Positions 1-57,342 of a stretch of DNA of 64,000 nt are shown in pieces. The notes beneath the pieces were generated by a model. That model did not search any database, was not told where the DNA came from, and worked only from the letters and a program-made list of their open reading frames with translations. Location of the stretch: contig CAUJDL010000087.1 in assembly GCA_963169635.1 (NCBI GenBank), positions 16,360-80,359 on the forward strand, read 5' to 3'. This DNA is from Bacteroidota bacterium (lineage in GTDB: Bacteria > Bacteroidota > Bacteroidia > Chitinophagales > Chitinophagaceae). Both the position numbers and the translations under genes were made by a program. Positions within the stretch are counted from its first letter, which is position 1. Every line of letters starts with the position of its first letter.

Positions 1-1295
1 ATTTAGGCGATGGTGTTTTTGAAGTAAAAAGCACTAATGGAGATACACATTTAGGTGGAGATGATTTTGATAAAGTAATTATGGATTGGTTAGCAGATGA
101 ATTTAAAGCTCAGGAAGCAATAGATTTACGTAAAGACCCAATGGCATTACAACGTTTAAAAGAAGCTGCTGAAAAAGCTAAAATAGAATTATCATCATCT
201 TCAGAAACAGAAATAAACTTACCATATATTACAGCAGTAGATGGTGTGCCTAAACATTTAGTAATAAAATTAAGTCGTGCAAAATTTGAACAATTAGCAG
301 ATAAATTATTTGAACGTTGTTTAAAACCTTGCGAAGTAGCTTTAAAAGATGCAGGATATTCTGCAAGCCAAATAGATGAAGTAGTGTTAGTGGGTGGCTC
401 TATTCGTATTCCTAAAGTACAAGAAATTGTAGAAAAATTCTTTGGAAGAAAACCAAATAGAGGAGTAAACCCTGATGAAGTAGTAGCAATTGGTGCAGCT
501 ATACAAGGTGGTGTATTAACAGGCGAAGTAAAAGATGTATTATTACTTGATGTTACACCATTAACATTAGGTATAGAAACAATGGGTGGCGTTTTAACTC
601 CTATGATTGCAGCAAATACTACCATACCAAGTAAAAAAACAGAAACTTTTAGTACAGCAAGTGATAACCAACCAGGTGTACAAATACATGTATTACAAGG
701 CGAAAGACCAATGGCTAGTCAAAATAAAAGTTTAGGAGTATTTAATTTAGATGGCATACCACCAGCACCAAGAGGTGTACCTCAAATAGAAGTTACTTTT
801 GATATTGATGCAAATGGTATGTTACATGTAAGTGCAAAAGATAAAGGCACAGGCAAAGAACAAAAAATTAGAATAGAAGCTGGTAGTGGTTTAAATAAAG
901 ATGAAGTAGAAAAAATGAAAGCAGAAGCTAAAGCACATGAAGCAGAAGATAAAGCAGCTCGTGAAAAAGTAGAAAAAATTAATCAGGCTGATAGCTTAAT
1001 TTTTCAAACAGAAAAACAATTGAAAGATTTTGGCGATAAAATTTCTGCTGATAAAAAAGCTCCTATTGAAACAGCTTTAACTAAATTAAAAGAAGCTCAT
1101 AAATCTCAAGATGTAGCTGCTATTGATACTGCTTTAGCAGAATTAAATACAGCTTGGACAGCAGCAAGTGAAGAAATTTATAAAGCACAACAAGAGCAAC
1201 AAGCTGATGGTGCTACAACTGCAGAACCTACTAATAATACACAAGCAAATAATAACGATACTGTTGAAGATGCACAGTTTGAAGAAGTAAAATAA
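1..1295 (+). CDS. dnaK: Chaperone DnaK (Hsp70), 3' part only
   Basis: Cytosolic ATP-dependent Hsp70 chaperone that works with DnaJ and GrpE in folding nascent and stress-damaged proteins. The gene enters from the left edge. The frame is open from base 3 ([22 protein letters not shown]), so the listed ATG at 81 is internal and roughly 200 N-terminal residues are missing. Visible are the end of the nucleotide-binding domain ([18 protein letters not shown], the second phosphate region), the linker [16 protein letters not shown], the substrate-binding beta domain ([35 protein letters not shown]) and the alpha-helical lid. The tail is a low-complexity Q/A/T/N-rich segment ending in DAQFEEVK, the usual charged C-terminus. 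A strong hairpin terminator follows. Identification is certain; only the 5' end and promoter are unseen. Confidence 0.98.
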
Positions 1296-1320
1296 ATTTG
1301 ATAATAGTATTTAATTTAAA

Positions 1321-1350
1321 AATCCCTTACAATTTGTAAGGGATTTTTTT
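1321..1350 (+). terminator. Intrinsic terminator after dnaK
   Basis: A perfect 10-bp stem (AATCCCTTAC / GTAAGGGATT) with a 5-nt loop is followed by a run of T. It begins 25 bases after the dnaK stop. It lies between convergent genes and touches the stop codon of the minus-strand peptidase gene, so it mainly serves dnaK. Confidence 0.85.
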
Positions 1351-2921
1351 TAATATTTATTTAAAGCTATAATACAGGCTACAGCAATTTTATCGCCTAC
1401 TGAAGTTTTAAAACCTATTGTTCCATTAGCATTATTCAAGTATTGTACACCTCTTACAGATTGTCTGCTAATAGCTGTATTTACAGCATTTTCAAAGCCC
1501 ATAGATTTATTTTGATTAATAGTATTATTTAATTTAAAAACATCTAATGCTTCTTTACTGGTAATAATAGCAAAGTAATCTTTATCGCCAATATCATCTG
1601 CTTCTAATTTTTTTCCTCTAGGAAATAAGCGATATCCTGTAATGCTGCAATAAGGAGAAAATATTGTTTTTTGTGGGTCTGCTTTTGAAGGATAAGGAAA
1701 TAAAACATAACTACTTCCATCAGTTTCTTTACCTATTATATATACATAACATTCAGTATTATTTTTTAATTCTATTTTAAAGCCTGTACGTTTTGGAATA
1801 GGATTTACCGATTCAAATAAATTATTCTCTACAGATTTTAAAGAGATATATTGTTTGGTAGTAGCATCTACTAAACCTATATCAATAGCTAAGTTTTGAG
1901 CAATAGCAGTACCTTGTTTTGGCATAGGATCTAAGCCATAAGCTTCACGAACAAAATGTTTAAAATCTTTATATAACACCCAACCAATTCCATTTACACC
2001 CCATTCATTACCCCAACTATTCATAATTTGAAAAGCACCACCTTCTTTTCTATCATCATATCCAATAACACACATGGCATGTCCACCAAATCCCATCATA
2101 TTATAATCATCAGGTTCAGGATGCCAAACTTCTTGTCCCATCATTCCTCTCATAAAACTTCCACCAACCATCATACCTATAATTACAGGAACATCTTTAG
2201 CTAAGTGTTCTTTAATTGCATGAATATTTATTTCTGCAGTGCTTTCATTATCTGTAAGTCTTGTAAAACCAATAATTCTATTTTCACCAGCTTCTTGAAT
2301 CAATTGTCCATTAGGTTGTTTGCTACAATCATTATCATTATATGGGAAATCGTTAAATGCAACAGCACCTACATCTGTTAAGTTTTTCATTGCTCTAATA
2401 ATATAACTTCCTTGGCAACCATCTAAACCAATTTGGTTATACATAAAAGCAGGGCTATAAGCAGTAGCATTAGGATTATTACCTGTACTAACAGATTGTA
2501 AAATTGTTCTTGCAGCATAAGCACTACTCCATGCTACACAACTACCTTGTTGTCCTTGATTTAATCTGTCTGGTGCAAATTTTAATAAAGAAATATATTC
2601 GGGTAGGTTTGCTTTTTGTTCATCTAAACCTTCATAAACTGCAGCTTTAGCAAAAGTATCTCTATTTAAATTACCTCCTGTAGTAAACTGTTGTACAGTA
2701 TTACTAATATCACTCATATTGCAACCACCACCTTTAAAATAAAAGAAAGCTGCACCTGCTAAAACTATTAAAAGTAATGATGGTTTTTTAATGAGTAACC
2801 CAATAATCATGGGTAAAAACTGTAATAAATTTCCACCACTTCTATTTCCACCACCACCAGAAGTACCTTCATTTTCGTTGGTAGTATTATCATTATTATC
2901 ATCAACCATTCTTATAGGCAT
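1350..2921 (-). CDS. Membrane-anchored papain-like (C1) cysteine peptidase with C-terminal DUF4384-like domain
   Basis: The N-terminus (about residues 1-35) is Asn/Gly-rich and cytosolic-looking. One hydrophobic segment follows at about 48-62 (LLLIVLAGAAFFYF), so the rest is probably extracytoplasmic. The peptidase domain (about 105-335) shows the papain triad in order: Cys128 in QGQQGSCVAW with the preceding oxyanion Gln, His281 in GFGGHAMCVIGYDD, and Asn301 in IMNSWGNEWG. After it, about 345-500 (ECYVYIIGKE...YVLFPYPSKADP...LFPRGKK) resembles the DUF4384 family, a domain often fused to bacterial peptidases. All catalytic residues are present, so it is probably an active endopeptidase; the substrate is unknown. 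It is the last gene of a minus-strand run (maeB, mlaE-like, this gene), 67 bases after mlaE. The peptidase call is firm, the DUF4384 call is moderate. Confidence 0.88.
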   Translation of the reverse strand: MPIRMVDDNNDNTTNENEGTSGGGGNRSGGNLLQFLPMIIGLLIKKPSLLLIVLAGAAFFYFKGGGCNMSDISNTVQQFTTGGNLNRDTFAKAAVYEGLDEQKANLPEYISLLKFAPDRLNQGQQGSCVAWSSAYAARTILQSVSTGNNPNATAYSPAFMYNQIGLDGCQGSYIIRAMKNLTDVGAVAFNDFPYNDNDCSKQPNGQLIQEAGENRIIGFTRLTDNESTAEINIHAIKEHLAKDVPVIIGMMVGGSFMRGMMGQEVWHPEPDDYNMMGFGGHAMCVIGYDDRKEGGAFQIMNSWGNEWGVNGIGWVLYKDFKHFVREAYGLDPMPKQGTAIAQNLAIDIGLVDATTKQYISLKSVENNLFESVNPIPKRTGFKIELKNNTECYVYIIGKETDGSSYVLFPYPSKADPQKTIFSPYCSITGYRLFPRGKKLEADDIGDKDYFAIITSKEALDVFKLNNTINQNKSMGFENAVNTAISRQSVRGVQYLNNANGTIGFKTSVGDKIAVACIIALNKY

Positions 2922-2988
2922 AAGATTAATTTTTATATTGTTAAGAATATAATTATTGGGATAAATATAAATATTTTATTAAGAAAAA

Positions 2989-3726
2989 CTAAAGTAATAA
3001 TGCAGCTAAAATATAATCTGCTAATAAAATTAAAATACAACTTACCACAACTGCTTTAGTACTTGCTCTACCAATTTCTAATGCACCACCTTTTACATGA
3101 TAACCAAAATATGCAGGAATACTGCTAACAATAAAAGCAAATGTGTAAGCTTTAGTTAATGCAAAAAATACATTATAAGGTGTAAAATTTAATCTTAAAC
3201 CAGTATCAAAAATATCAGTAGCAATTATACCACTCATTGCACCAGCAGTTCTACCACCCCAAATTGCTAATAATGCAGAGAGTATAATAAGACAAGGAAT
3301 AACTACTAATGCTGCTGTAATTTTTGGTAATATTAAATAGCTTCTTGTATTAATACCCATAATTTCTTGAGCATCTATTTGCTCTGTAATTTGCATATTA
3401 CCTAATTCACTGGCAATTTTACTACCTACTACACCAGCTAATACAATACTTACAACAGTGGGAGAAAGTTCTAATATTACACTATCTCTTACAATTTGTG
3501 CAATGGTAGTAAGTGGTACTAAGGGACTTACTAATTGATAAGCTGTTTGTACTGTAGTTACAGCACCTAAAAACAAAGAAATAATTACTACAATAGGTAA
3601 TGCACCAATACCAATTTCTACGCATTGATGCATAAACTCTTTCCAATACATTTTATAATTCTCTGGTTTGGTAAACATACTTTTTAGCATTACAATATAT
3701 CTACCAAAATGTGTAAAGAAATTCAT
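2989..3726 (-). CDS. MlaE/YrbE-type ABC transporter permease (phospholipid transport)
   Basis: Inner-membrane permease of the MlaE (MCE-associated) family, which moves phospholipids between inner and outer membranes together with an MlaF-type ATPase and an MCE (MlaD) protein. At 245 aa it has the normal family length. Conserved blocks are visible: GIGALPIVVIISLFLGAVTTVQ near residues 37-58, and the cytoplasmic loop LAGVVGSKIASELGNMQITEQIDAQEIMGI near 97-127, which is the family signature that contacts the ATPase. Four to five further hydrophobic helices follow. It starts 15 bases after the maeB stop, so the two are likely co-transcribed. Unusually, no ATPase (mlaF) or MCE gene follows; the next gene downstream is the cysteine peptidase. 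The partners must be encoded elsewhere. Confidence 0.92.
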   Translation of the reverse strand: MNFFTHFGRYIVMLKSMFTKPENYKMYWKEFMHQCVEIGIGALPIVVIISLFLGAVTTVQTAYQLVSPLVPLTTIAQIVRDSVILELSPTVVSIVLAGVVGSKIASELGNMQITEQIDAQEIMGINTRSYLILPKITAALVVIPCLIILSALLAIWGGRTAGAMSGIIATDIFDTGLRLNFTPYNVFFALTKAYTFAFIVSSIPAYFGYHVKGGALEIGRASTKAVVVSCILILLADYILAALLL

Positions 3727-21178: not shown

Positions 21179-23395
21179 TTACTCTGCTGAATTTTGTTCT
21201 TCTTCTTGCTGCATAGCTATATGATAAGCCATAATAAATATAGCACCAAGATTTTTGTGTGGCGGAACATAATCTTCAAAATTTTCTTTATATGCACCAG
21301 TAAATTGAGTAGATAAATTCTTCCACATTAAAGGCCAATTTAAATTTTTATTTAACCTTAAAGAATTTACAATAGCATTAATTAAATTAATATTAATAGC
21401 ACCTGTACCAGTTTGTTTAGATGAAATAATATGTGCTTGAGGGCAGGTTTCTAACACTTCATTTAATCTTTGATAACCACCACAACTACCCAACAAAATT
21501 ACTTTTGCAGAACTTGGTAATTGTTCAATTGTAGAGCCAACAAAATAACTATGACCTCTATGAATTACAATAGTAGGATACAATTCATTTTCTTCTAAAT
21601 ATCTGCCTAAAGCTTCTTGTGCTTTTACATCTAAATCTGTTTCATTGTCTAAAGGCTTGTTGCAATATATACTAATAGGCACACCTTTTACACTATGAAT
21701 TTCAACCCAATCTTCTGTTTCAGTTTTTTTCCAGTTTGGTGCTGTATAATATTTAAAGAAAGAATTAAAAACTGCTTTACCATCTTTATCGCCATAAAAA
21801 AATTGTTGAATAATTATTCTACCACTACTATCTTTTAATTCTTTTATAGGCATTTGATAAATACCTGTAATACCTAACCTACTAGCAATATCAATTTTAT
21901 TAGTAGAATCCATTGACTGAAAAATAATATTTAGCAAATTATAAATGGTTAATCCTCTTTTATTATTTGCTTTTTCACTTTCAAAAAGGTTAGTAGCAAT
22001 TTGCGATAAAATTAATTTTCTGATATTAATATTATAAATACTAGCATAAGAATTAGCAACATCAACAGCATCTTCTAAAGATGTAGTATTTTCTAATCCA
22101 GAAACAAAATTTCTCATTAATGTTTCTGCATTTTGCTTATTCATTTTAGCTAAAAAATTATCTAGTGTATTATAGTTAGCAGCAATTTTTATAAACTTTT
22201 TATAGTAATCGTAATTAACCCATTTTAATAAAGTATCTGAAACGGGATGTTGCATTTTTTCAAAAATTCTTTTATACACACCTAAATAACTACTTGTATA
22301 AATTTCTTCTTCGCCTAAAACAGCTACATAATATAAATCTCTTGGTGTTAATGGATTTAAACAAGCAAAACGAATATTTTCTTTCTCATCGTGTAGTGCA
22401 TTTATTGGTGTAATATATAATTCTACAGCTTTTGTTTTAAGACGATTAGTTAAAACTTTCATTACAAGTGGTGTATCATTATTTTTTACTCTTCCTGCAT
22501 ATTCAATTTGTGTATTAACTAACAACTGATAATACTTTAAACTATCATTTAAAACTTTGGTAATATCAGCCATAGAAATTTTTCCTTTATATAAATTATC
22601 TAAAAAAGGAAAATACATTCTGCCTGTTTTCATTAATGCTAACAAGCCAATTTGCTTAACTAATGGATGATTAACAGATTGAATTTTTTTACCTAAAGCA
22701 TTAGGTGCAGCAGCATAATTATATAGTTGTTCAGGATCTTTAAAAGCATTGCTAATAATAATACTATCTGCAAAAGATGCTTGTGGATTTTGCGATAATA
22801 AGCTCATTGTTTTTTTAGGATAACGATGAATTTTTTTTAATAAAATAACATCATCGCAAGAAGCTATACCTACATTATCTTTTAAAGCAAAGTTTTTAAT
22901 TAAAATTTCTCCCACTTCAAAATCATTATTTTCAACAATAGGCTTTATAGAGTTTTTGCTTAGTTCTAATTGCATAGCATCTCTATAAGCAATGATGAAA
23001 TGATACAATAAATGTCCTTTATAAAATTTTGCTTTATAACCTGTAACAAAAGCATTGAGCATATCATTAACACCACGCAACCATTTGTATTTACTATTAG
23101 CATCTATATTATCATCAAGCTCAATACTTGCTTGCATATTATCTACAATAGTGTGTAGTGCATCATTTATCTTTTCATTAACTGTATCTACAGAACTTAT
23201 AATAAATTCATTGTCATTAACACCATCTAATTGTGTAATTAATTTTTGTGTTTTATCAATTATATCATGATTTAATTGACGCATTGTAGGCACTGTAGGC
23301 ATTGGAATAGGAATAGTTGGGGTAAATGTTTGTGCTACAGATGTTGTAATGCTAAACAGTATTAATAATATAATTAAGTAATTTTTTTTCATCAT
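21179..23395 (-). CDS. Secreted protein of unknown family with possible His/Cys (caspase/gingipain-like) C-terminal module
   Basis: The ORF track begins at 23419 (746 aa), but a signal peptide starts at the Met-Met at 23395/23392 (MMKKNYLIILLILFSITTSVAQ), so I use 23395. Residue numbers here follow the 746-aa frame. About 40-580 is mostly helical, with no recognised family. Near the end, PTIVIHRGHSYFV (His620, His623) is followed after a short spacer by AKVILLGSCGGYQRLNEV (Cys646), then HIISSKQTGTGAININLINAIVNSL. Strand-His-Gly-His-spacer-strand-Gly-Ser-Cys-Gly resembles the catalytic His/Cys layout of clan CD peptidases (caspase, gingipain, CHAT). That is an inference from motif order only. 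There is no T9SS tail, so it is probably periplasmic. It stands alone on its strand. Confidence 0.78.
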   Translation of the reverse strand: MMKKNYLIILLILFSITTSVAQTFTPTIPIPMPTVPTMRQLNHDIIDKTQKLITQLDGVNDNEFIISSVDTVNEKINDALHTIVDNMQASIELDDNIDANSKYKWLRGVNDMLNAFVTGYKAKFYKGHLLYHFIIAYRDAMQLELSKNSIKPIVENNDFEVGEILIKNFALKDNVGIASCDDVILLKKIHRYPKKTMSLLSQNPQASFADSIIISNAFKDPEQLYNYAAAPNALGKKIQSVNHPLVKQIGLLALMKTGRMYFPFLDNLYKGKISMADITKVLNDSLKYYQLLVNTQIEYAGRVKNNDTPLVMKVLTNRLKTKAVELYITPINALHDEKENIRFACLNPLTPRDLYYVAVLGEEEIYTSSYLGVYKRIFEKMQHPVSDTLLKWVNYDYYKKFIKIAANYNTLDNFLAKMNKQNAETLMRNFVSGLENTTSLEDAVDVANSYASIYNINIRKLILSQIATNLFESEKANNKRGLTIYNLLNIIFQSMDSTNKIDIASRLGITGIYQMPIKELKDSSGRIIIQQFFYGDKDGKAVFNSFFKYYTAPNWKKTETEDWVEIHSVKGVPISIYCNKPLDNETDLDVKAQEALGRYLEENELYPTIVIHRGHSYFVGSTIEQLPSSAKVILLGSCGGYQRLNEVLETCPQAHIISSKQTGTGAININLINAIVNSLRLNKNLNWPLMWKNLSTQFTGAYKENFEDYVPPHKNLGAIFIMAYHIAMQQEEEQNSAE

Positions 23396-23515
23396 GATAA
23401 TACAAAAATAATCGTTCAATAGCTTTTAATTGCATAAAGCATGTTAAAGCATTTAATTTAATAAAGATTTAAAATATAATTTAACTGTATAAAGTTATTT
23501 TTGTAGCCATATCTA

Positions 23516-24202
23516 ATGAATAACATGGAAATAAAATCAAAAAAAATTTTAATAGCAGATGATGAGCAAGATATTTTAGATATCATTAGTTATAATTTAA
23601 TTGCAGAAGGTTATGAAGTAATTACTGCTAACAATGGTAATGAAGCAATTGAAAAAGCAAAACAATATAATCCAGACCTGATTATTTTAGATATTATGAT
23701 GCCTAAAAAAACAGGACTTGAAGTTTGTAATATTTTAAGAAAAGATGTTTTATTTAAAGATACCTTAATAATTTTTTTAACTGCACTTAATGATGAAGAT
23801 ACACATATAAAAGGTTTAGAAACTGGTGCAGATGATTATATAAGTAAACCTATTAGTACCAAAATTTTAGTAAGCAGGGTAAATGCATTATTTAGAAGAA
23901 TTAATAAAGAAGAAGACAAAACAATTAAAATAAATAATATTGTTATAGACCCTATTAAGTATATGGTATTAGTAGATAATGCAGAAGTAGTATTAGCTAA
24001 AAAAGAATTTGAATTATTGTATTTATTAGCAGCCGATGCAGGTCGTGTATTTTTAAGACAAGAAATACTTTCGCAAGTATGGGGTTTAGATGTAATTGTT
24101 GGTGATAGAACAATAGATGTACATATTCGTAAAATACGTCAGAAATTAAATTTAGATTGTATAGCTACTGTAAAAGGTGTAGGTTATAAATTTATTGTAT
24201 AA
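23516..24202 (+). CDS. OmpR/PhoB-family response regulator
   Basis: Two-component DNA-binding regulator. The receiver domain (residues about 8-125) has IADDEQD, phospho-acceptor Asp59 in LIILDIMMPKKTGLEV, Thr/Ala in IIFLTALND, and Lys in ADDYISKPIS. The C-terminal winged helix (about 135-228) reads VVLAKKEFELLYLLAADAGRVFLRQEILSQVWG...VGDRTIDVHIRKIRQKL...TVKGVGYKF, typical of PhoB. The start could also be Met4 (23525). A TATTTTTG box (23496-23503) precedes it at a suitable distance, but no clear -33 box is seen. No histidine kinase gene is adjacent, so the partner is elsewhere. The 3' end overlaps dxs by 11 bases, tail to tail. Confidence 0.95.
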   Translation: MNNMEIKSKKILIADDEQDILDIISYNLIAEGYEVITANNGNEAIEKAKQYNPDLIILDIMMPKKTGLEVCNILRKDVLFKDTLIIFLTALNDEDTHIKGLETGADDYISKPISTKILVSRVNALFRRINKEEDKTIKINNIVIDPIKYMVLVDNAEVVLAKKEFELLYLLAADAGRVFLRQEILSQVWGLDVIVGDRTIDVHIRKIRQKLNLDCIATVKGVGYKFIV

Positions 24203-36566: not shown

Positions 36567-39500
36567 ATGAAAAAATTTTTACTAACACTTTTGATTGGCA
36601 TTATTGCATTTGCAGTACAGAGTCAAACTCCTGTACCAATGGCTTCTCAAACTAACTTAACATATACTGAAACATTTGCAGATATTAATAATTGGGTTTT
36701 TAAAACAAGCCCTGATGATGGAACTTTTATTGCAGGAAATGGTGCAGCAGCTTGGCTTGGTTTAGATGTGATGAGTATAGGTACTATTCCTAGTGCAACA
36801 TTCATTACAAAAAGTTCTACCTTTTTTCAGATAGCACCTACAGGCAATGGAGGTTATAGTAGTGGTATTATTAAAGGCAATCAAAAGATAGAAATGTTAG
36901 CTACGGGTACTACTAATAATACAAACTCTGTAGCCATAGATTTTTTAATGGATTTTACAGGTATAAATGCAGGTACTTTAAGTTTCGATTGGGCTTCTAT
37001 TAATAACTCTACTGGTAATAGAAGTAGTTCTTTAAAAGTTTATGCATCTGTAGATGGTGTAAACTTTACAGAAATTACCAGTGCACAAGTTTTAAATTTT
37101 ACCAATAATAATCCATCTGCAGGTAGTATTGCAAATGTGGCATTACCAACAATATTTAATAACAGTGCAACAGCACGTTTACGTTTTTATTATTATAATG
37201 GTACAGGAGGTTCTACAGGTAGCAGACCAAGATTAAGTATAGATAATGTAAAAGTTACAGCAGTATCTAATGTGCCATGTACAGCACCAACAGCACAGCC
37301 TACAAATTTTTTATTAGGCACTGTAATACATAATGCAATTAGTTTTTCTTATACTGCTGCAAGCCCTGCACCTAATAATTATTTAATTTTAATGAGTAAT
37401 AATAGTAATCTTACATCATTGCCAGTTAATGGTATTAACTATAATATTGGCGATGCTTTAGGCGATGCAACAGTTGTAGGTATTACTAATAACAACAACT
37501 TTACTGCAACAGGTTTAGATTTATCTACTACTTATTATTTCTTTATTTTTTCTGTCAATAATTCTTGTACTGGTGGTCCATTGTATTTAACAACATCGCC
37601 ACTTACAGGCAATGCAACAACAACAGCAGGTGCTTTGCCTTGTACTGCACCAACTACACAACCTACTAACTTAACATTTACCAATAAAACTACAAGTAGT
37701 ATTTCTGGTAGTTTTTCTCCAGCAGCAAATACAGATGAGTATTTAATTATTAGAAGTCTTTCATCTACATTTACTGGTACAATTAATAATGGTACAGTAT
37801 ATAATGGAGGATATTTTTTAGGAAATGGAAGTGTTGTAACCAGAACAGCAGATACAAATTTTACTGCTAATAATTTAGTGAGTGGTACTACTTATTATTT
37901 TTATGTTTTTGGATTAAATAGATTAAACTGTACCAATGGTCCTGCTTATAATACTACTAATCCATTAACTGGTAATACACCAACAATTGCATTACCAACT
38001 TGTGCAGAACCTACTGCACAACCAACACAATTAAATTTAGTAGCATCAAATAATTATATCAATGGTTATTTTAAAGCTTCTACTTCTGCAGATGGATATT
38101 TAATTGTTAGAACTACAAGTGCTACGCTTTCATTATCACCTCAAAATAGTACTACATATACAGAAGGTAGTAGTTTAGGTAATGGAATTATTATTCAAAA
38201 TAGTGCTGCTACTGCATTTATAGATATTAATTTATCTACAACAACAACTTATTATTATCACATTTTTGCAAAGAACGAAAATTGTGTAGGTGGTGTAAAA
38301 TATTTAATTGTAAATCCATTAATGGGTAATGCTACTACAACTGCATTAGCAATATCAAATTGGTATTATGGAAATTTACATGCACACTCTGCTTATTCAG
38401 ATGGTAATCAAGATAATTTAACATTAACACCTGCTAATGATTATGCTTATGCAAAAAATTCTTTGTGTATGGATTTCTTAGGTATCTCAGATCATAATCA
38501 TGCAGGTGCAGGTATGAGTATTAATCATTGGTTGCCTGGATTAAATCAAGCTGCTGCAGCTACTACTACAGATTTTCTTGCATTATATGGAATGGAGTGG
38601 GGTGTAATAAGTAATGGTGGACATGTGTTAGTGTATGGTACAGACCAATTAATAGGTTGGGAAACGAATAACTATAATGTATATGTACCTAAAAGTAATT
38701 ATTTAGGTACACCAGAAACTAATGGTACTACAGGTTTATTTAGAACAATTAATAATTTAGGTGGAAATACTTTTGCAACATTAGCACATCCATCTTTCTC
38801 TGATTATAATGGAATTGCCAACATTGCATTTAATGCAACTGCAGATAGTGCAATTGTAGGTGCTGCTGTTGCAAGTGGTATTGCTTTTAGTACAAACACT
38901 ACTTACTCAAATCCACCAAGCTCTTTTAGTTATATAGATTTTTATACAAGAATGTTAAGTAAAGGATATCGTATTGGCCCAACAATGGATCATGATAATC
39001 ACTATACTAATTTTGGTAGAAGTAATCATAACAGATTAGTAGTTGTTGCACCATCACTTACACAAACTAATTTCTTTAATGCTATGCGTAGCAGAAGTTT
39101 TTATGCTACAGAAGATTGCGATACTAAAGTAATATTTACATTAAATAATGCTACTATGGGAAGTATCATTTCTGGAGATCAAGCACCAGCAATAACTGTA
39201 TATGCTTACGACCCAACAAATCCAAGTTTTGTAGCTACTATTCGTTTAATGTATGGTGTTGCAGGTAGTGGAATATTACCTGTACAAATTGCCACAGTTA
39301 ATAGTGATAAACTAACATTTACTGATATTGATTTACCAGATAATGTAAATGGATATTATTATGCTGATATTTTAATAGGTGGTGGAAGAACAATTACTGC
39401 ACCTATTTGGTACACAAAAAACACTGTAGTACCTGTTAAGTTAGTTTCATTAAATGCAACATTAAATAATGAACGTAATTGGGTAAATATTTCTTGGTTA

Positions 39501-39980
39501 ACTACTAATGAAGTAAATAGTCATTTTTATGTTGTAGAAAAATCTGAAGATGGTATCAACTTTAAATCATTTGATACTATAAAAGCTAATAACTATCATG
39601 GTTTAAATTATTATGATGCTTTAGATAAAACGCCTTTTGCTAAAACAACTTATTACCGTTTAAAACAATTTGATGTAGATGGTAGTTTTACATACTCTAA
39701 AATTGTAGCTGTACAATTAAATAATCATTTTTACTTGTTTAATTTTTATCCAAACCCTGTACATAATTCTGCTGTAGCAGAAATTAATGTAAATACAAAT
39801 ACTGAAACTGTTATTACAATTACAGATATTACAGGCAGAGTTGTAAAAAAACAATCAGTAAAATTACAAAGAGGAGTACAACAAGTAACTTTAGATTTTA
39901 GCAATTTACATGCAGGAAATTATCAAGCAACTATGTATATAAATGGACAAACCATTACTCGTAAAATTGTAAAATTATAA
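36567..39980 (+). CDS. Secreted PHP-type metallohydrolase with three N-terminal repeats and a T9SS type A sorting tail
   Basis: 1137 aa. The signal peptide is MKKFLLTLLIGIIAFAVQSQ. About 25-230 is a jelly-roll-like domain. Three repeats of about 118 residues follow (about 237-590), each opening with a pattern like CTAPTAQPTN and ending near NPLTGNATTT, fibronectin-like. The catalytic part (about 594-900) is a PHP/CehA-like metal-dependent phosphoesterase: NLHAHSAYSDGNQ (HxH metal site), FLGISDHNHAGAG, YGMEWGVIS, LAHPSFSDYNG and GPTMDHDNH all supply expected metal ligands. The final 80 residues (FYPNPVHNSAVAEI...TDITGRVVKKQSV...LHAGNYQATMYINGQTITRKIVKL) form a type A T9SS sorting domain. So it is an exported phosphohydrolase or nuclease-like enzyme, substrate unknown. 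Confidence 0.9.
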   Translation: MKKFLLTLLIGIIAFAVQSQTPVPMASQTNLTYTETFADINNWVFKTSPDDGTFIAGNGAAAWLGLDVMSIGTIPSATFITKSSTFFQIAPTGNGGYSSGIIKGNQKIEMLATGTTNNTNSVAIDFLMDFTGINAGTLSFDWASINNSTGNRSSSLKVYASVDGVNFTEITSAQVLNFTNNNPSAGSIANVALPTIFNNSATARLRFYYYNGTGGSTGSRPRLSIDNVKVTAVSNVPCTAPTAQPTNFLLGTVIHNAISFSYTAASPAPNNYLILMSNNSNLTSLPVNGINYNIGDALGDATVVGITNNNNFTATGLDLSTTYYFFIFSVNNSCTGGPLYLTTSPLTGNATTTAGALPCTAPTTQPTNLTFTNKTTSSISGSFSPAANTDEYLIIRSLSSTFTGTINNGTVYNGGYFLGNGSVVTRTADTNFTANNLVSGTTYYFYVFGLNRLNCTNGPAYNTTNPLTGNTPTIALPTCAEPTAQPTQLNLVASNNYINGYFKASTSADGYLIVRTTSATLSLSPQNSTTYTEGSSLGNGIIIQNSAATAFIDINLSTTTTYYYHIFAKNENCVGGVKYLIVNPLMGNATTTALAISNWYYGNLHAHSAYSDGNQDNLTLTPANDYAYAKNSLCMDFLGISDHNHAGAGMSINHWLPGLNQAAAATTTDFLALYGMEWGVISNGGHVLVYGTDQLIGWETNNYNVYVPKSNYLGTPETNGTTGLFRTINNLGGNTFATLAHPSFSDYNGIANIAFNATADSAIVGAAVASGIAFSTNTTYSNPPSSFSYIDFYTRMLSKGYRIGPTMDHDNHYTNFGRSNHNRLVVVAPSLTQTNFFNAMRSRSFYATEDCDTKVIFTLNNATMGSIISGDQAPAITVYAYDPTNPSFVATIRLMYGVAGSGILPVQIATVNSDKLTFTDIDLPDNVNGYYYADILIGGGRTITAPIWYTKNTVVPVKLVSLNATLNNERNWVNISWLTTNEVNSHFYVVEKSEDGINFKSFDTIKANNYHGLNYYDALDKTPFAKTTYYRLKQFDVDGSFTYSKIVAVQLNNHFYLFNFYPNPVHNSAVAEINVNTNTETVITITDITGRVVKKQSVKLQRGVQQVTLDFSNLHAGNYQATMYINGQTITRKIVKL

Positions 39981-49329: not shown

Positions 49330-52300
49330 ATGAAGATTATGAAAGAATTTAACAAACTGAGTATTTTATTATTTGTATTTCTTGCCTTTGGGGGTATTCA
49401 AAAAGTACCAGCACAATTTAGCATTAATAATGCTGAAAACACATTTGTAAAAAATCAATATTCGCCTTCTCAAGGTTATGATTTATTTACAAATTTTGAT
49501 AAATCAGTTGTTACTACTTCTGATGATAATGTTTATACAGGAGGCTCTTGTGTAGCATTAACAAGTGGTGGTACTATTGGTTCTAATCAGCAAAATTGTG
49601 GTTCATTTACTGCTGCTGGTTTTACTAATATCACTTCTGCAAGTGGTGGTACAGGAGGTACAATAAAATATCAATGGCAAAAATTAATAAGTTGTGGTTC
49701 TTTTACTGATATATCTGGTAAAACTGCAGCTACATATTCTGCTGGTGCAGTTACTAAAACTACTATCTATCGTCGTAAAGCATGGAGAGATTGTTCTGGT
49801 GGTACTGGTAATACACCAATTTACTCAAATGAAGTTACAGTATTAATTGTTTATCCTGGTACTATTTCAGGAGATCAAAGTGGTAGTTGTAATTATGTAC
49901 CAACATCAATAACTGGTACAAATGAAAGTACTAATAACAATTATTGTTTAAGCGATGGTACTGCACAAAATCAAAGTTATCAATGGCAACAAAGTATAGA
50001 TGGTGGCATAACTTGGACAAATATTAGTGGTGCAACCTCTCAGAATTATGCACCAGGGGCATTAACACAAACAACAAAATATAGAAGGGCTACTACTGTT
50101 AGTGGCTTTACTTGTTATAGTAATGTAGTAACTAAAACTGTAACAGTAACACCAGTTGTTTTATCAGAAGAAAAATTCCCAAATAGTTTTAATACAGGAT
50201 TTTCTGCACCTATTAATACTACATTTGCAGGCTCTATAGGTACTTGGAGTGCATACTCTACAACAAATAGATCTACTATTGTAGTTAATAATGCATACTA
50301 TCAATCATCACCATATGCAATTAAAATTGTAAATTATAATACTAATGGTTATGCAGCAAGTACAGCAAGAGCTACATCACCTAAAGTAGATTTATCTACA
50401 GCATCAAATGCTAATTTAACTTTTAAATTATATACTTATGCTGTTTCTGCATCAAACACTTGCTATACATTTAAGATAGAATTTTCTAATGATAATGGTA
50501 GTACATGGAGTACAGCTTTATCATTAACATCTCAAGATATTTATAATACTTATGGCCTTAATCAATGGGGTACTGTAAATATACCAATTGCAGCAGCAAA
50601 TTATAATAGTAATTTTAAATATAGAATAAGTGGTACATCAAATGCAGGATGTAATTTTGATACATATATTTATTTAGACAATTTTGTAATTAACTCTTAC
50701 CCTGTATGCGTTAATTGTCCTACTGTAACAGAAGCAGGTGCAGAACAAACAAATTGTAATGATAATACATTTACCATGTCTGCTACTGCTGCACCAAATG
50801 GCTCTACAGGTACATGGAGTGTAATTAGTGGAAGTGCAACAATTGCAAATGTAAATTCAGCAACTTCTTCAGTTACTGTTACAAGTTCTCCTGCTGTTTT
50901 AAGATGGACAGTAACAACACCAAGCTGTTCTGATATTTATGATGAAGTAACATTAATCAATAATATTCCAGGTATTACTACATTATCTGATGAAAAATTC
51001 CCTAATAGTTTTAATACAGGATTTACAGCACCAATAAATACAACATTTACAGGCTCTACAGGATCATGGGGTGCTTATTCTACAACAAACAGATCTACCA
51101 TTGTAGTACATAGTAATTATTATCAATCATCTCCTTATGCTTTAAAGATTGTAAATTATAGTACTAGTGGTTATGCTGCAAGTACAGCAAGAGCTACATC
51201 GCCTAAAGTAAATTTACAAGGTGGACATAATATAGATTTAAGTTTTAGATTATATACATATTCTGTTTCTGCTGCTAATACTTGCTATTCATTTAATGTA
51301 GAATTTTCTAATGATAATGGTGGCAGTTGGACTACAGCCTATTCAAAAACAGCACAACAAATTGCCAATAGTTTTGGTCAAGGTACATGGAGTACAATTA
51401 CAATTCCTGTAGATCCTAGTTTTTATAATACTAATTTTAGATATCGTATAAGTGGTGTACAAGCTAGTGGTTGTGGTTATAATACTTATTTATATGTAGA
51501 TAATATAGTAATCAATACTTATGGTTCTTGTGAGCCTTGCCCTGAATCAACAAATGCTGGGTCTGAGCAAACACATTGTAATGATAATGTATTTACAACT
51601 TCTGCTACACCAGCACCTGATGGTTCTACTGGTACTTGGAGTGTAGTAAGTGGTGCAGCAACTATCAATGATGTAAACGCACCTGCAACATCTGTAACTG
51701 TTACAAGTTCACCTGCTACTTTAAGATGGACAGTAACAACACCAGGTTGTCCTGATGTTTATGATGAAGTTGTATTTACTAATGAAGTTACTGGATCTAC
51801 AACAATCTCTTATGAAACATTCCCTAACTGTTTTAATACAGGTTTCTCTGCACCAATTAATTCATCATTCACAGGTTCTACTGGTACTTGGGGTGCATAT
51901 TCTACAACTGCAAGATCTACAGTTGTAGTGTATGATGCAGTTTATCAATCATCTCCTTATGCATTAAAACTGGTAAATTATAGTACAAGTGGATATGCTG
52001 CAAGTACATCAAGAGCTACATCTCCAAAAATAAATTTAACAGGTGGTAATAGTGTAGATTTAAGTTTTAAATTATATACTTATTCAGTATCTGCATCTAA
52101 TACTTGTTATACATTTAAAGTAGAATTTTCTAATGATAATGGTAGTACATGGAATACTGTACATACTGCAACTGCACAAGAAATTTATAATACTTATGGT
52201 CTTAATCAATGGGGCACAGTAACTATACCAGTACCTGTAAGTTATTATAATGCTAATTTTAAATATAGATTAAGTGGTGTACAAAATGCAGGATGCGATT

Positions 52301-55300
52301 ATAATACTTATATTTATATAGATAATATTGCTATAAAAACTTACACTTCTTGCGAACCTTGTCCTACAGAAACTAATGCAGGTACTAATCAGTCTAATTG
52401 TAACAACAATACATTTACAATGGCTGCAACACCAGCACCTGTTGGTTCTACAGGTACTTGGAGTGTAATGAGTGGTAGTGCTACTATTGCTAATGTAAAT
52501 TCAGCAACAACATCAGTAACAGTTACTAGCTCTCCTGCAATTTTAAAATGGACAATAACAACTCCTGGCTGTCCAGATATTTATGATTCAGTAGAATTAA
52601 TTAATAATATTAACTCACCAGTTAATATTTCTACAGAGTCATTTACAAACAGTTTTAATACAGGTTTCTCAGCTCCAATAAATTCTACATTTACAGGTTC
52701 TGCTGGTACATGGAGTGCTTATTCTAGTACAAGCAGATCTACTATTGTAGTAAATAATGCATATTATCAATCATCTCCTTATGCTTTAAAATTATATCAT
52801 CAAAGTACAAGTGGATATGCTGCAACTACAACTAAAGCTACATCTCCTACTATTAATTTAAGTAGTGGTAATAGTGTAGAGTTAAGTTTAAAGCTTTATA
52901 CACATACAATTTCTTCATCTAATACATGTTTTTCATTTAATATAGAAATTTCTAATGATAATGGATCTACATGGAGTAATGTTTATACAAAAACTTCTCA
53001 ACAATTAGTTAGTGCTTTTGGACATGATACTTGGAATACAATTACAGTTCCTGTACCTGTAAGTTATTATAATGCAAACTTTAAATATCGTATAAGTGGT
53101 GTACAAGCTGCTGGTTGTAATTTTAATACTTATTTGTATATAGATGATATTAATTTAAAATCTTATCCTCCTTGTGTACCTTGTCCTACAGAAACAGAAG
53201 CAGGTGAAAATCAAATAAACTGTAATAATAATACATTTACAATGTCTGCAACACCAGCACCTGTTGGTTCTACAGGAACTTGGAGTGTAGTTAGTGGAGC
53301 AGCAACTATTGCTAATGTAAATTCAGCTACAACTACTGTAACTGTTACAAATTCTCCAGCTATTTTAAAATGGACAATTACTACACCAGGATGCCCAGAT
53401 ATTTATGATTCAGTTACATTAACTAATAATACAAATACACCAACAGTTATTGCTCATGAAACATTCCCTAATTGCTTTAACACAGGTGGTTCTAGTCCTG
53501 TAAATACAACTTTTGTTGGTTCTACAGGTACATGGAAAGCTTACTCTACAACAAGTAGATCAACAATTGTTGTTGATGGTTTTGTCAATCAATCATCTCC
53601 TTATGCTTTAGAATTAGTAAATATTAGCACAAGTGGTTATGCTGCAAGTACATCTACTGCTACTTCTCCTAAATTAAATTTAAGTAGTGGTAATAATGTT
53701 GAGTTAACATTTAAATTATATACATACAATGTATCTGCTTCTAATACATGTTATACATTTAATATAGATATTTCTAATGATAATGGTACAACATGGTCAA
53801 GTGCTTATACACAAACAGCACAACAAATAGCTAATGCATACTTGCCTCAAACTTGGAATACAATTACAATTTCAATTCCTGCAAGTTACTATAATGCTAA
53901 TTTTAAATATCGTTTTACAGGTGTACAAGCTGCTGGTTGTAATTTTAATACTTATTTATATATAGATGATGTTTCTATTAAATCTTATGAGCCATGTGTA
54001 GTTTGTCCTGAAGAAACTAATGCAGGTATTGATATTACCAATTCTAATAACAATAACTTTACAATGAATGCTACTCCAGCACCTATTGGTTCTACTGGTA
54101 CTTGGAGTATTGTTAGTGGTAGTGCAACTATTGCAGATATTCATTCTCCTACAACAACTGTAATCATTGCAAGTTCTCCTGTTACTTTAAAATGGACAAT
54201 AACAACACCTGGTTGTGATGATATTTTTGATTTAGTAGTTTTGGTAAATAATGTAGATTGTGGACCAAATACATTTAGCCCTACTAAAGAAGCTAAAGGT
54301 TTTGATATCTTCTCTAAAGAAGGTGTAACATTAACTGGAGGTCATACAGATGGTGGTGTTGCATTAGGTGGAAACTTAACATTAAGTGGTGCTTCTATTT
54401 TAACAATGAATCACACAGGTTATTATCCTAATGGCTATAATGTAGCTGGTAACTATGGTTTAGTAATTGGTGGAAGAGTTTATTATAATTCAGGAAATCA
54501 AACAAATGTAAACTCTGGTGCAAAACTAAGAATAGGAAATACTACAGGTTCTACTTTATGGGATCAAGATCCTAATAATGCTACTGTTAATTTACGTTTA
54601 ACATCAAATGCTTCTTCAGGATGGACTGGTTATAACAGTACACCTGCAATACTTTTAAATAGTTTACAAACTGCTGCAAGTGCTATTACACCAAGTGGTA
54701 TAAACTTTACTTCAGCTTTTTCAACTTTAGTTGCAAATGCTAATTTAATGAGTACTTATTCTGCATCTTCACCATGTGCAAGTCAGTTAAATATTATTAC
54801 TTTAAGTGGAACTACACCAACGATTACTTTAGTTAATAATAAAGTAAACGTAGTAAATATTGATGGAGATGATTTTGCTGCAATTACTAATATTACTTTT
54901 AATAATGCACCAACAGCTACAAGACCATTAATATTTAATATTAATTATACTGGTTCTGGTACTTACTCACCTTATAATTCTACAGGCTTACAAAATACTG
55001 ATGGTAGATTTATAATTTATAATTTATACAACTGTACAGGCACTGTAACTTTCAATGCATCTAATGTATTAAGAGGTACTATACTAGCACCAAATGCAGA
55101 AATTATTTGGAATGGTAGTAATAATTTAGAAGGACAAATTATCGCTAAAAATGCAACACTTGTTGCTGGAGAAATACATACACAAATTTTTGATGTTTGT
55201 TTACCAAGTTGTAATCCTTCAATTTCTATTAGTGGTAATGTGTATGCATCTATTGTTTCTTGTACACCAAATGTAGTTGGTGGTGTAAGAACTAATGTAA

Positions 55301-57342
55301 ACAATACTTTATATGCTAACTTAGTTGGTACTGATAATAAAGTTGTAAGTAGTGTAGCAGTTGCTTCAAATGGTACATTTACTTTTGCAAGTGTATTTGG
55401 AAATACTACTTATAATATAATACTTACAGAAGGTGTTAGAACTGTTGGTAGCAATTTAACTGCTGCTGATTTACCTGCTCATTATCTAAGTGTAAAAGAA
55501 TTTTTAGGTGCAGGTGCTGGTAATGATGGTACTGCAAATAGTATTTTAAATGTTGTAACAACTAATACAAATGTTACTAATGCTAATTTTGAAATAGGAA
55601 AAGATACTGATGGCGATGGTGTACCTGATTATTTAGATATTGATGATGATAATGATGGTATTACTGATGTAAATGAACATGGTGGTATTGATCCTTTAGC
55701 TGATTGTGATTGCGATGGAATACCTAATTATTTAGATACAACACCAGGCTGTGGTATTGTTTGGGCAGATTGTAATATGGATGGCATTAATGATAATTTT
55801 GATTGGGATAGAGATGGTATAATTAATTCTTTAGATTTAGATAGTGATAATGATGGTATAGTAGATGTTGTAGAAGCAAGACCAAATGGTGTAGCATTCT
55901 TAAACCAAGTAAATGGTACTATTACAGGTACAGATGCTGATGGCAATGGTTTAATGAGTTCTGCAGATAATGGTTCTGGCTTTAATAATCCTAACTTAAA
56001 CGGATTAATACCTCAAGATTTTGACAGAGATGGTACTCCTAACTTCTTAGATTTAGATAGTGATGGAGATGGTATTACTGATTTATCAGAAGCATTTAGT
56101 GTTCATTCTCCTACAGGTGTTGTTGGTGGTTCAGATACTGATGGCGATGGTGTAAGAGGTGAAAGCTTTGGTGATAATTCATTTGATGTTGCTGATAATT
56201 TTGATGGTTTTGGTGCAAAAGGTTTAACACTTGTAGATAGTGATGGAGATGGTAAACCAGATGTATATGATGTAGATAGCGACAATGATGGAATTACTGA
56301 TAATACTGAAGCTCAAGCTACATGTACATTTAAAATGCCTACAGGCAATGATTGTGATGGTGATGGTGTAGATGATGCTTATGATATTGGTGGTTGTACT
56401 TCTTGTACAAGAACAAGTAGTGGCCTTTCTCCTTTTGATAAAGATGGAGATAATACACCAGACTATTTAGATACTGATACTGATAATGATGGAGTTCCAG
56501 ATATTTATGAAGGTCATAATGTAAAAACAAATAACTATTGGCAAGGTGGTACAGATGATGCTGATAAAGATGGTTTAATGGATTACTTTGATGGATTTAA
56601 TATTATTAATGCTACTGCAAACTTCTGGAGAAATGCTATTAATAATAATATGGGTAATGATGGTACTTGGGATACAGGCGTTGGCCCTACAGGTAGTATT
56701 TCTCAATTACCTAAGAGCAGACAAGGAGATTGTAATGTAGGTGATAGAGATTGGAGAGACTTTATGATTTTACCTACAACATTATTAGACTTTACAGGAA
56801 ATGTAAACAATGATAATATTGCTAAATTAACTTGGTCTGTTACTTCAGAAATTAATATGAGCCATTATGAATTAGAAAGAAGCACTACTGGCAACGACTT
56901 TGTACAAATTGCCAAAGTTCAAGCTATCAATCATTCTGCTGTTTCTACAATTAGTGATTATAATGCAGACGATAATTTAGCTAATATTAATGCTAATACA
57001 GTTTATTACAGATTAAAACTTGTAGAAAAAGACAATAGCTTTAAATACAGTAAAGTACTTGCCTTTAAATTAGTGAAGAATGATAAAACAAATATTGCTG
57101 TTCATCCTAACCCTGCAGTTAATTACTTTAATCTTAAAGTAGTTACAGATAAAGATGAAAATGCTCTTGTTCGTGTAGTAGATTTATTAGGCAGAACTTT
57201 AATAACTAAACAAACTAAAGTTTTAACTGGTATTAACACAATATCTTTCAACGATATTAGCTCGTTAAGTGCAGGCACTTATAGTGTACAAGTTATTTTA
57301 AATAACAATGTTTATACAGAAAAATTAATTGTAACAAAATAA
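49330..57342 (+). CDS. Giant T9SS-exported surface protein (2670 aa) with five 274-aa repeats and a choice-of-anchor A domain
   Basis: Signal peptide (FNKLSILLFVFLAFGGIQKVPAQF; Met4 is an alternative start). About 70-275: two Ig-like domains with YQWQ motifs. About 278-1645: five repeats, each a jelly-roll-like half (FNTGFSAPIN...SSPYALKIVN...FSNDNGSTW) and an Ig-like half (CPTETNAG...GSTGTWSVVSG...LKWTITTPGCPDIYD). About 1645-1960: choice-of-anchor A domain, the fold linked to ice-binding and collagen-binding-like adhesins (GGVALGGNLTLSGASI, RGTILAPNAEIIWNGSNNLEGQIIAKN). About 2090-2420: many TSP3-like calcium motifs (DTDGDGVPDYLDIDDDNDGITD). The last 80 residues (VHPNPAVNYFNLKV...LLGRTLITKQ...LSAGTYSVQVILNNNVYTEKLIVTK) are a type A T9SS sorting domain. 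Likely a cell-surface adhesin; ligand unknown. Confidence 0.93.
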   Translation: MKIMKEFNKLSILLFVFLAFGGIQKVPAQFSINNAENTFVKNQYSPSQGYDLFTNFDKSVVTTSDDNVYTGGSCVALTSGGTIGSNQQNCGSFTAAGFTNITSASGGTGGTIKYQWQKLISCGSFTDISGKTAATYSAGAVTKTTIYRRKAWRDCSGGTGNTPIYSNEVTVLIVYPGTISGDQSGSCNYVPTSITGTNESTNNNYCLSDGTAQNQSYQWQQSIDGGITWTNISGATSQNYAPGALTQTTKYRRATTVSGFTCYSNVVTKTVTVTPVVLSEEKFPNSFNTGFSAPINTTFAGSIGTWSAYSTTNRSTIVVNNAYYQSSPYAIKIVNYNTNGYAASTARATSPKVDLSTASNANLTFKLYTYAVSASNTCYTFKIEFSNDNGSTWSTALSLTSQDIYNTYGLNQWGTVNIPIAAANYNSNFKYRISGTSNAGCNFDTYIYLDNFVINSYPVCVNCPTVTEAGAEQTNCNDNTFTMSATAAPNGSTGTWSVISGSATIANVNSATSSVTVTSSPAVLRWTVTTPSCSDIYDEVTLINNIPGITTLSDEKFPNSFNTGFTAPINTTFTGSTGSWGAYSTTNRSTIVVHSNYYQSSPYALKIVNYSTSGYAASTARATSPKVNLQGGHNIDLSFRLYTYSVSAANTCYSFNVEFSNDNGGSWTTAYSKTAQQIANSFGQGTWSTITIPVDPSFYNTNFRYRISGVQASGCGYNTYLYVDNIVINTYGSCEPCPESTNAGSEQTHCNDNVFTTSATPAPDGSTGTWSVVSGAATINDVNAPATSVTVTSSPATLRWTVTTPGCPDVYDEVVFTNEVTGSTTISYETFPNCFNTGFSAPINSSFTGSTGTWGAYSTTARSTVVVYDAVYQSSPYALKLVNYSTSGYAASTSRATSPKINLTGGNSVDLSFKLYTYSVSASNTCYTFKVEFSNDNGSTWNTVHTATAQEIYNTYGLNQWGTVTIPVPVSYYNANFKYRLSGVQNAGCDYNTYIYIDNIAIKTYTSCEPCPTETNAGTNQSNCNNNTFTMAATPAPVGSTGTWSVMSGSATIANVNSATTSVTVTSSPAILKWTITTPGCPDIYDSVELINNINSPVNISTESFTNSFNTGFSAPINSTFTGSAGTWSAYSSTSRSTIVVNNAYYQSSPYALKLYHQSTSGYAATTTKATSPTINLSSGNSVELSLKLYTHTISSSNTCFSFNIEISNDNGSTWSNVYTKTSQQLVSAFGHDTWNTITVPVPVSYYNANFKYRISGVQAAGCNFNTYLYIDDINLKSYPPCVPCPTETEAGENQINCNNNTFTMSATPAPVGSTGTWSVVSGAATIANVNSATTTVTVTNSPAILKWTITTPGCPDIYDSVTLTNNTNTPTVIAHETFPNCFNTGGSSPVNTTFVGSTGTWKAYSTTSRSTIVVDGFVNQSSPYALELVNISTSGYAASTSTATSPKLNLSSGNNVELTFKLYTYNVSASNTCYTFNIDISNDNGTTWSSAYTQTAQQIANAYLPQTWNTITISIPASYYNANFKYRFTGVQAAGCNFNTYLYIDDVSIKSYEPCVVCPEETNAGIDITNSNNNNFTMNATPAPIGSTGTWSIVSGSATIADIHSPTTTVIIASSPVTLKWTITTPGCDDIFDLVVLVNNVDCGPNTFSPTKEAKGFDIFSKEGVTLTGGHTDGGVALGGNLTLSGASILTMNHTGYYPNGYNVAGNYGLVIGGRVYYNSGNQTNVNSGAKLRIGNTTGSTLWDQDPNNATVNLRLTSNASSGWTGYNSTPAILLNSLQTAASAITPSGINFTSAFSTLVANANLMSTYSASSPCASQLNIITLSGTTPTITLVNNKVNVVNIDGDDFAAITNITFNNAPTATRPLIFNINYTGSGTYSPYNSTGLQNTDGRFIIYNLYNCTGTVTFNASNVLRGTILAPNAEIIWNGSNNLEGQIIAKNATLVAGEIHTQIFDVCLPSCNPSISISGNVYASIVSCTPNVVGGVRTNVNNTLYANLVGTDNKVVSSVAVASNGTFTFASVFGNTTYNIILTEGVRTVGSNLTAADLPAHYLSVKEFLGAGAGNDGTANSILNVVTTNTNVTNANFEIGKDTDGDGVPDYLDIDDDNDGITDVNEHGGIDPLADCDCDGIPNYLDTTPGCGIVWADCNMDGINDNFDWDRDGIINSLDLDSDNDGIVDVVEARPNGVAFLNQVNGTITGTDADGNGLMSSADNGSGFNNPNLNGLIPQDFDRDGTPNFLDLDSDGDGITDLSEAFSVHSPTGVVGGSDTDGDGVRGESFGDNSFDVADNFDGFGAKGLTLVDSDGDGKPDVYDVDSDNDGITDNTEAQATCTFKMPTGNDCDGDGVDDAYDIGGCTSCTRTSSGLSPFDKDGDNTPDYLDTDTDNDGVPDIYEGHNVKTNNYWQGGTDDADKDGLMDYFDGFNIINATANFWRNAINNNMGNDGTWDTGVGPTGSISQLPKSRQGDCNVGDRDWRDFMILPTTLLDFTGNVNNDNIAKLTWSVTSEINMSHYELERSTTGNDFVQIAKVQAINHSAVSTISDYNADDNLANINANTVYYRLKLVEKDNSFKYSKVLAFKLVKNDKTNIAVHPNPAVNYFNLKVVTDKDENALVRVVDLLGRTLITKQTKVLTGINTISFNDISSLSAGTYSVQVILNNNVYTEKLIVTK
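50161..54270 (+). repeat. Five tandem 822-bp coding repeats in perfect register
   Basis: Equivalent positions (the ...EKF/ETF/ESF N-terminal motif) fall at 50161, 50983, 51805, 52627 and 53449. All four steps are exactly 822 bp (274 codons), although the repeats differ clearly at the base level. The last unit ends near 54258-54270, where the choice-of-anchor A domain begins. Confidence 0.85.

Follow-up and report, generated by a model that had tools for sequence, protein, structure and literature searches.

A probable exported caspase-like cysteine peptidase of the Chitinophagaceae, encoded beside a PhoB-like response regulator

The best-known bacterial relatives of the caspases are either cytoplasmic, with roles in defence and cell death, or secreted, e.g. 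the gingipains and the T9SS protein PorU. Which described family comes closest to the protein treated here, which is encoded in the window, a 64,000-nucleotide stretch of a Chitinophagaceae genome? In CHAT proteins, including TPR-CHAT/Csx29 (PF12770), a helical N-terminal region precedes a C-terminal alpha/beta peptidase, the layout also proposed for the window protein, and of the profiles compared theirs scores best, with His and Cys in register under relaxed gap costs. However, His and Cys are 23 residues apart here, as against some 47 profile columns in CHAT, and the window protein has a signal peptide, no CRISPR association and no match to the CHAT model. Ordinary CHAT proteins occur in about half of the sampled genomes of the same family. 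Peptidase_C14 (caspases, metacaspases and orthocaspases; PF00656) shares the order strand-His-helix-strand-Cys, also in register when gap costs are relaxed, but the window protein has a shorter His-Cys segment, no recognised p10-like part and no C14 match.

Separase (Peptidase_C50, PF03568) combines a helical N-terminal part with a C-terminal peptidase, and has a GHG-like motif and a short His-Cys spacing; a search of 148 genomes of the phylum for separases to serve as a comparison profile gave no sequence over the family cut-off. The gingipain-type peptidases, PorU among them (Peptidase_C25, PF01364), share the clan CD order of His and Cys and are exported proteins of Bacteroidota, but the window protein has no recognised T9SS C-terminal domain, a different N-terminal domain and no profile signal. 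Clostripain (Peptidase_C11, PF03415) is brought in by one viral C11 model among the top Foldseek matches, although the TM-score is low (0.27 / 0.19) and Pfam gives no C11 match. The sequence-only reading knew of no described family with this architecture; indeed, no Pfam or NCBIfam family covers the window protein at its own cut-off, and literature searches found no published description of the family.

The gene is present in one copy in its own genome. The 738-residue product opens with a signal peptide, continues with some 470 helical residues and ends in an alpha/beta domain, and the features are located as follows.

21179..23395, minus strand: whole gene of the putative secreted caspase-like protein, 738 aa, from ORF calling (ATG at 23395, ORF body 21182-23395, stop codon 21179-21181)
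23333..23395, minus strand: predicted signal peptide, residues 1-21, from sequence (cleavage-like site between SVA and Q, no lipobox Cys)
21875..23287, minus strand: all-helical N-terminal domain, residues 37-507, from the full-length AlphaFold2 model
21182..21853, minus strand: C-terminal alpha/beta domain, likely caspase-like, residues 515-738, from the AlphaFold2 domain model and profile comparison
21779..21796, minus strand: YGDKDG loop following that domain's first strand, residues 534-539, with Asp536 and Asp538 conserved
21548..21562, minus strand: HRGHS motif, residues 612-616, with His615 the proposed catalytic His, from conservation and models
21476..21490, minus strand: GSCGG motif, residues 636-640, with Cys638 the proposed nucleophile, from conservation and models
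23396..23515, no strand: divergent intergenic region with the response regulator, 120 bp
23516..24202, plus strand: PhoB-like OmpR-family response regulator, the divergent neighbour, from its TIGR02154 score and linkage

The sequence-only reading quoted two strings, IVIHRGHSYFV and VILLGSCGGYQR, and both are present in the open reading frame. Its residue numbers, His623 and Cys646, start at an in-frame TTG (23419), eight codons upstream of the ATG at 23395. The ATG is the start implied by that reading's own coordinates, and numbered from there the same two residues are His615 and Cys638. A signal peptide had also been claimed, and the N-terminus is signal-peptide-like (MMKKNYLIILLILFSITTSVA, followed by Q at the cleavage-like site), with a consensus start MKK...AQ in alignment A3 of 79 sequences. 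By a crude heuristic, 103 of 124 homologues carry a strongly hydrophobic N-terminal segment, and none shows a lipobox-like motif. No T9SS sorting domain was recognised on the protein with Pfam and NCBIfam at family cut-offs. The protein is probably exported by the Sec route and periplasmic.

Are the two residues conserved? The sequence-only reading had made their invariance among homologues a check on a possible clan CD dyad. Cys638 is present in all 124 distinct homologues and the HRGHS motif in 123, the remaining one having HRGYS, in which Tyr replaces His615; the distance between the two positions is 23 residues in every case. The Cys motif is GSCG in 119 of the 124, and GGCG or GDCG in five. 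All 81 sequences of the genome contig set have the dyad. Conservation of the motifs holds down to about 21-25% overall identity among the 124 distinct sequences. Across 49 diverse homologues, where mean column identity is 29%, there are 15 invariant columns, and eight of these lie in HRG-S and GSCG (H612, R613, G614, S616, G636, S637, C638 and G639); N332 and Y355 of the helical domain are invariant as well. As judged from these alignments, the conservation of the two motifs is far beyond chance.

In the AlphaFold2 model of the C-terminal domain alone (81-sequence alignment; pLDDT 91.8, pTM 0.90), and also in the full-length model (pLDDT 92.9, pTM 0.81), His615 lies in the loop after strand 609-613 and Cys638 in the loop after strand 632-636. 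The elements of the domain model, whose numbering plus 504 gives that of the protein, are E23-29, H35-45, [E51-55, E59-64], E70-75, H84-98, E105-109 (then His), H112-120, E128-132 (then Cys), H136-146, E151-155 and H161-176. Clan CD peptidases have the same order of elements, with the catalytic His loop after one central strand and the catalytic Cys loop after the next. A caspase-like alpha/beta core had been named beforehand as something to look for in a model, and the models do show an alpha/beta domain with the two residues after consecutive strands. His612 is also invariant, but it is positioned inside the strand, whereas His615 is in the loop that follows, and its offset from the strand equals that of Cys638; on these grounds His615 appears to be the better catalytic candidate. 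Asp536, which is invariant in alignments A2 and A3, and Asp538 follow the first strand, and one may speculate that they could form an S1 pocket for a basic residue or a metal site. It is equally speculative that Lys660-Gln661, which come after the last core strand, help to line the pocket.

The full-length model also bears on the rest of the protein. About 550 residues of helical sequence had been proposed; residues 37-507 are indeed helical, and the length is thus roughly 470. Two database hits in this part of the protein were rejected. A defence-system reading arises from PADLOC BrxA matches in five of 49 homologues (best E 3e-4), which in the window protein cover a 47-residue helical stretch, and is not credible. 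Pfam DUF7923, matched by 12 of the 49 members (best E 9e-5), spans only a short helical stretch, residues 396-448 in the window protein, where the match is below the cut-off.

How far does sequence comparison connect the domain with clan CD? Related genomes supplied the sequences for alignments of CHAT, C14, C25 and MMR_HSR1 domains, the families of neighbouring genes served as further controls, and 14 profiles were compared by hhalign; C11 sequences were too few for a useful profile. CHAT ranks at the top of the 14, with a score of 29.4-29.8, an hhalign probability of 15-20% and Cys aligned to Cys. None of 60 shuffled decoys reached 29.8 (mean 14.8, maximum 28.4). The CHAT score alone is not convincing, since GalE, an unrelated Rossmann negative control, attains 28.6 over a short match of 27 columns. 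The C14 score under ordinary settings is inside the decoy range, and C25 gave neither a Pfam match nor any profile-profile similarity.

With relaxed gap costs, His615 and Cys638 fall on the catalytic His and Cys columns of both CHAT and Peptidase_C14, each in-register alignment needing a gap. Both residues are on target in 4/150 and 3/150 block-shuffled decoys (CHAT and C14, respectively), and 0/150 reach the real score for either family. The apparent catalytic register adds weight beyond the score. No match above the Pfam gathering cut-off is found for the window protein with PF12770 or PF00656; the former is also missing from the listed families of 49 homologues, and the latter from the same 49. 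PDB sequence searches with the protein and two profiles yielded no meaningful match to the C-terminal domain. When the domain model was searched against the PDB with Foldseek, the best 50 of 1450 matches included no peptidase, whether caspase-like or other, and the full-length search presented a similar picture. In the viral structure library BFVD, the clostripain-related C11 protease mentioned above is match 7. Homology to clan CD is weak at the level of sequence. The clan CD assignment first put forward is favoured by dyad conservation and by the strand-His/strand-Cys order, and it is not helped by the sequence statistics or by the Foldseek PDB result; a caspase-like fold is likely, not proven. 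Taken as a whole, the evidence is best explained by a clan-CD-type cysteine peptidase that is exported, represents an undescribed family, has a helical domain for recruitment or control and acts in coordination with a PhoB-like two-component system (probability about 0.62).

What else might the domain be? The main rivals are a cysteine enzyme of another type, built around a nucleophile elbow, and a caspase-like module that has no catalytic role. The former, which is unlikely, would be an alpha/beta enzyme, for instance a hydrolase of the glutamine-amidotransferase-like or DJ-1-like type, or a transferase, with Cys638 outside clan CD geometry. GSCGG resembles GxCxG, and nucleophile elbows typically have Gly at -2 and +2 of the Cys; element order alone cannot separate a flavodoxin-like from a caspase-like sheet, and this reading also gains from the weak statistics for clan CD. 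However, the conserved His precedes the Cys and follows the preceding strand, as in clan CD, whereas the catalytic His of class I amidotransferases comes after the Cys. No Pfam amidotransferase or hydrolase model matches, and the CHAT and C14 profile alignments, with both residues in register, also argue for a clan CD peptidase.

Still less probable is a pseudo-peptidase, i.e. a caspase-like fold that serves as a structural or peptide-binding module, for example a periplasmic peptide sensor, and does not cleave. The paralogue with Tyr at the position of His615 fits this, and pseudo-variants do exist among bacterial caspase homologues (PMC6426788). The pseudo-variants that have been described lose the dyad, however, whereas in this family Cys638 and His615 persist at the frequencies given above over a wide divergence. 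The option of a degenerate binding module, raised in the sequence-only reading, is disfavoured likewise, because a nucleophile would be expected to drift in a dead domain and here it is kept throughout. A degenerate P-loop GTPase-like domain is highly improbable: small GTPases make up most of the best 50 of the 1450 Foldseek PDB matches (best E 6e-5), but at TM-scores of about 0.3-0.4 and rmsd mostly of 6-18 Angstrom, the first strand is followed by YGDKDG and not by a GxxxxGK[ST] P-loop, and the small-GTPase profile score of 18.3 is near decoy level (reached by 6/60 decoys). Small GTPases and caspases have their core sheet connectivity in common, which can explain the Foldseek matches, given the missing P-loop and the near-decoy score.

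Among the genomes sampled, the protein occurs only in Chitinophagales, and nearly every genome of the Chitinophagaceae has it. A homologue is present in 36 of 37 Chitinophagaceae genomes, that of the window included, the sole one without a match being a small genome of 1.9 Mb (G026). The order's other families are represented by 24 genomes; six of these have a match, in five cases with two copies. In a sample of 396 genomes of the phylum, in which just two candidates per genome were scored, matches occur solely in Chitinophagaceae. A scan of 84,980 species, with one genome per species, gave at least 573 confirmed relatives; 80 relatives among the matches listed belong to Chitinophagaceae, Chitinophagales, Sediminibacterium, Segetibacter, Hydrotalea and similar. 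As no Pfam or NCBIfam model exists for them, these homologues are probably annotated as 'hypothetical protein'.

Some paralogues are longer, above 900 aa. One of about 930 aa (L047, ORF 375-3167) has HRGYS for HRGHS, keeps GSCGG and stands in tandem with an intact copy; it is possibly an inactive paralogue. In another genome (G005, locus L008) an in-frame TGA cuts the homologue about 70 residues short; the stop falls beyond the catalytic Cys, and it reflects a pseudogene or an assembly error.

The gene has a usual neighbour. A PhoB-like response regulator divergently adjoins it in 72 of 80 sampled loci, at a median gap of about 120 bp, and four of the eight exceptions have less than 300 bp of upstream sequence. 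Second copies lack this linkage, as do several more distant genomes. The window regulator scores best with PhoB TIGR02154, but its 223.4 bits fall short of the NCBIfam equivalog cut-off of 296.2; by this score it is PhoB-like, not a certified PhoB. In relatives, a PhoR-like histidine kinase comes after the regulator in 65 loci, a DUF47/PhoU-like gene in 30 and a Pit-type transporter in 25. Downstream of the protease gene there is an MBL-fold hydrolase in 47 loci, an approximate count that includes spurious antisense ORFs, and a large exported-looking protein in 44.

The window's regulator has no such kinase next to it; the kinase orthologue (66% identity) is on another contig (L300, 6496-7545), apart from its presumed regulator and without other marker genes. 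In this genome the pairing of regulator and protease gene has outlasted that of regulator and kinase. Elsewhere in the window are two genes for proteins with T9SS tails: 49330-57342 (plus strand) encodes a 2670-aa protein in which an adhesive domain of ice-binding-like type and a match to the reelin subrepeat accompany the sorting tail, and 36567-39980 (plus strand) a 1137-aa protein with an fn3 domain and a near-cut-off match to the CehA/McbA metallohydrolases.

Do the regulator and the protease gene share a control element? The 8-mers ATTGTTAA and TTACACAA are found in 69 and 62 of 73 regulator-protease intergenic regions (loci L051-L130), with about 0.02 expected per 120 bp, and are rare elsewhere; the genomes behind these counts are related. 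Neither has an exact match in 23396-23515 of the window. Both are candidate operator or promoter elements, and with related genomes and no exact match in the window, a shared operator is only a suggestion.

How might the predicted peptidase work? After export to the periplasm, probably by Sec, His615 would activate Cys638, each in the loop after its own strand of the consecutive pair, and the Cys638 thiol would attack a peptide bond. The helical domain might recruit the substrate, restrain the peptidase until a partner or substrate is bound, or do both; the layouts of TPR-CHAT and separase offer an analogy for such control. The gene is probably expressed in coordination with the divergent PhoB-like regulator, and through it perhaps also with the PhoR-like kinase and the phosphate-uptake genes that are linked in relatives. 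The protein is probably an active envelope protease tied to a PhoB-like two-component system. A more far-reaching version is doubtful as a whole: an ancestral and nearly universal envelope protease of the Chitinophagaceae, from a new clan CD family, with a periplasmic helical domain in control of a separase/CHAT-like peptidase. A two-component system of the PhoB/PhoR type would govern it, and it would be the caspase-like proteolytic branch of a stress response to phosphate or envelope conditions.

The family draws attention for the signs of export, the long helical domain, the near-universal presence in a large environmental family and the link to a PhoB-like regulator. If the proposed reading is true, it would suggest that a caspase-like protease has a housekeeping role in the envelope.
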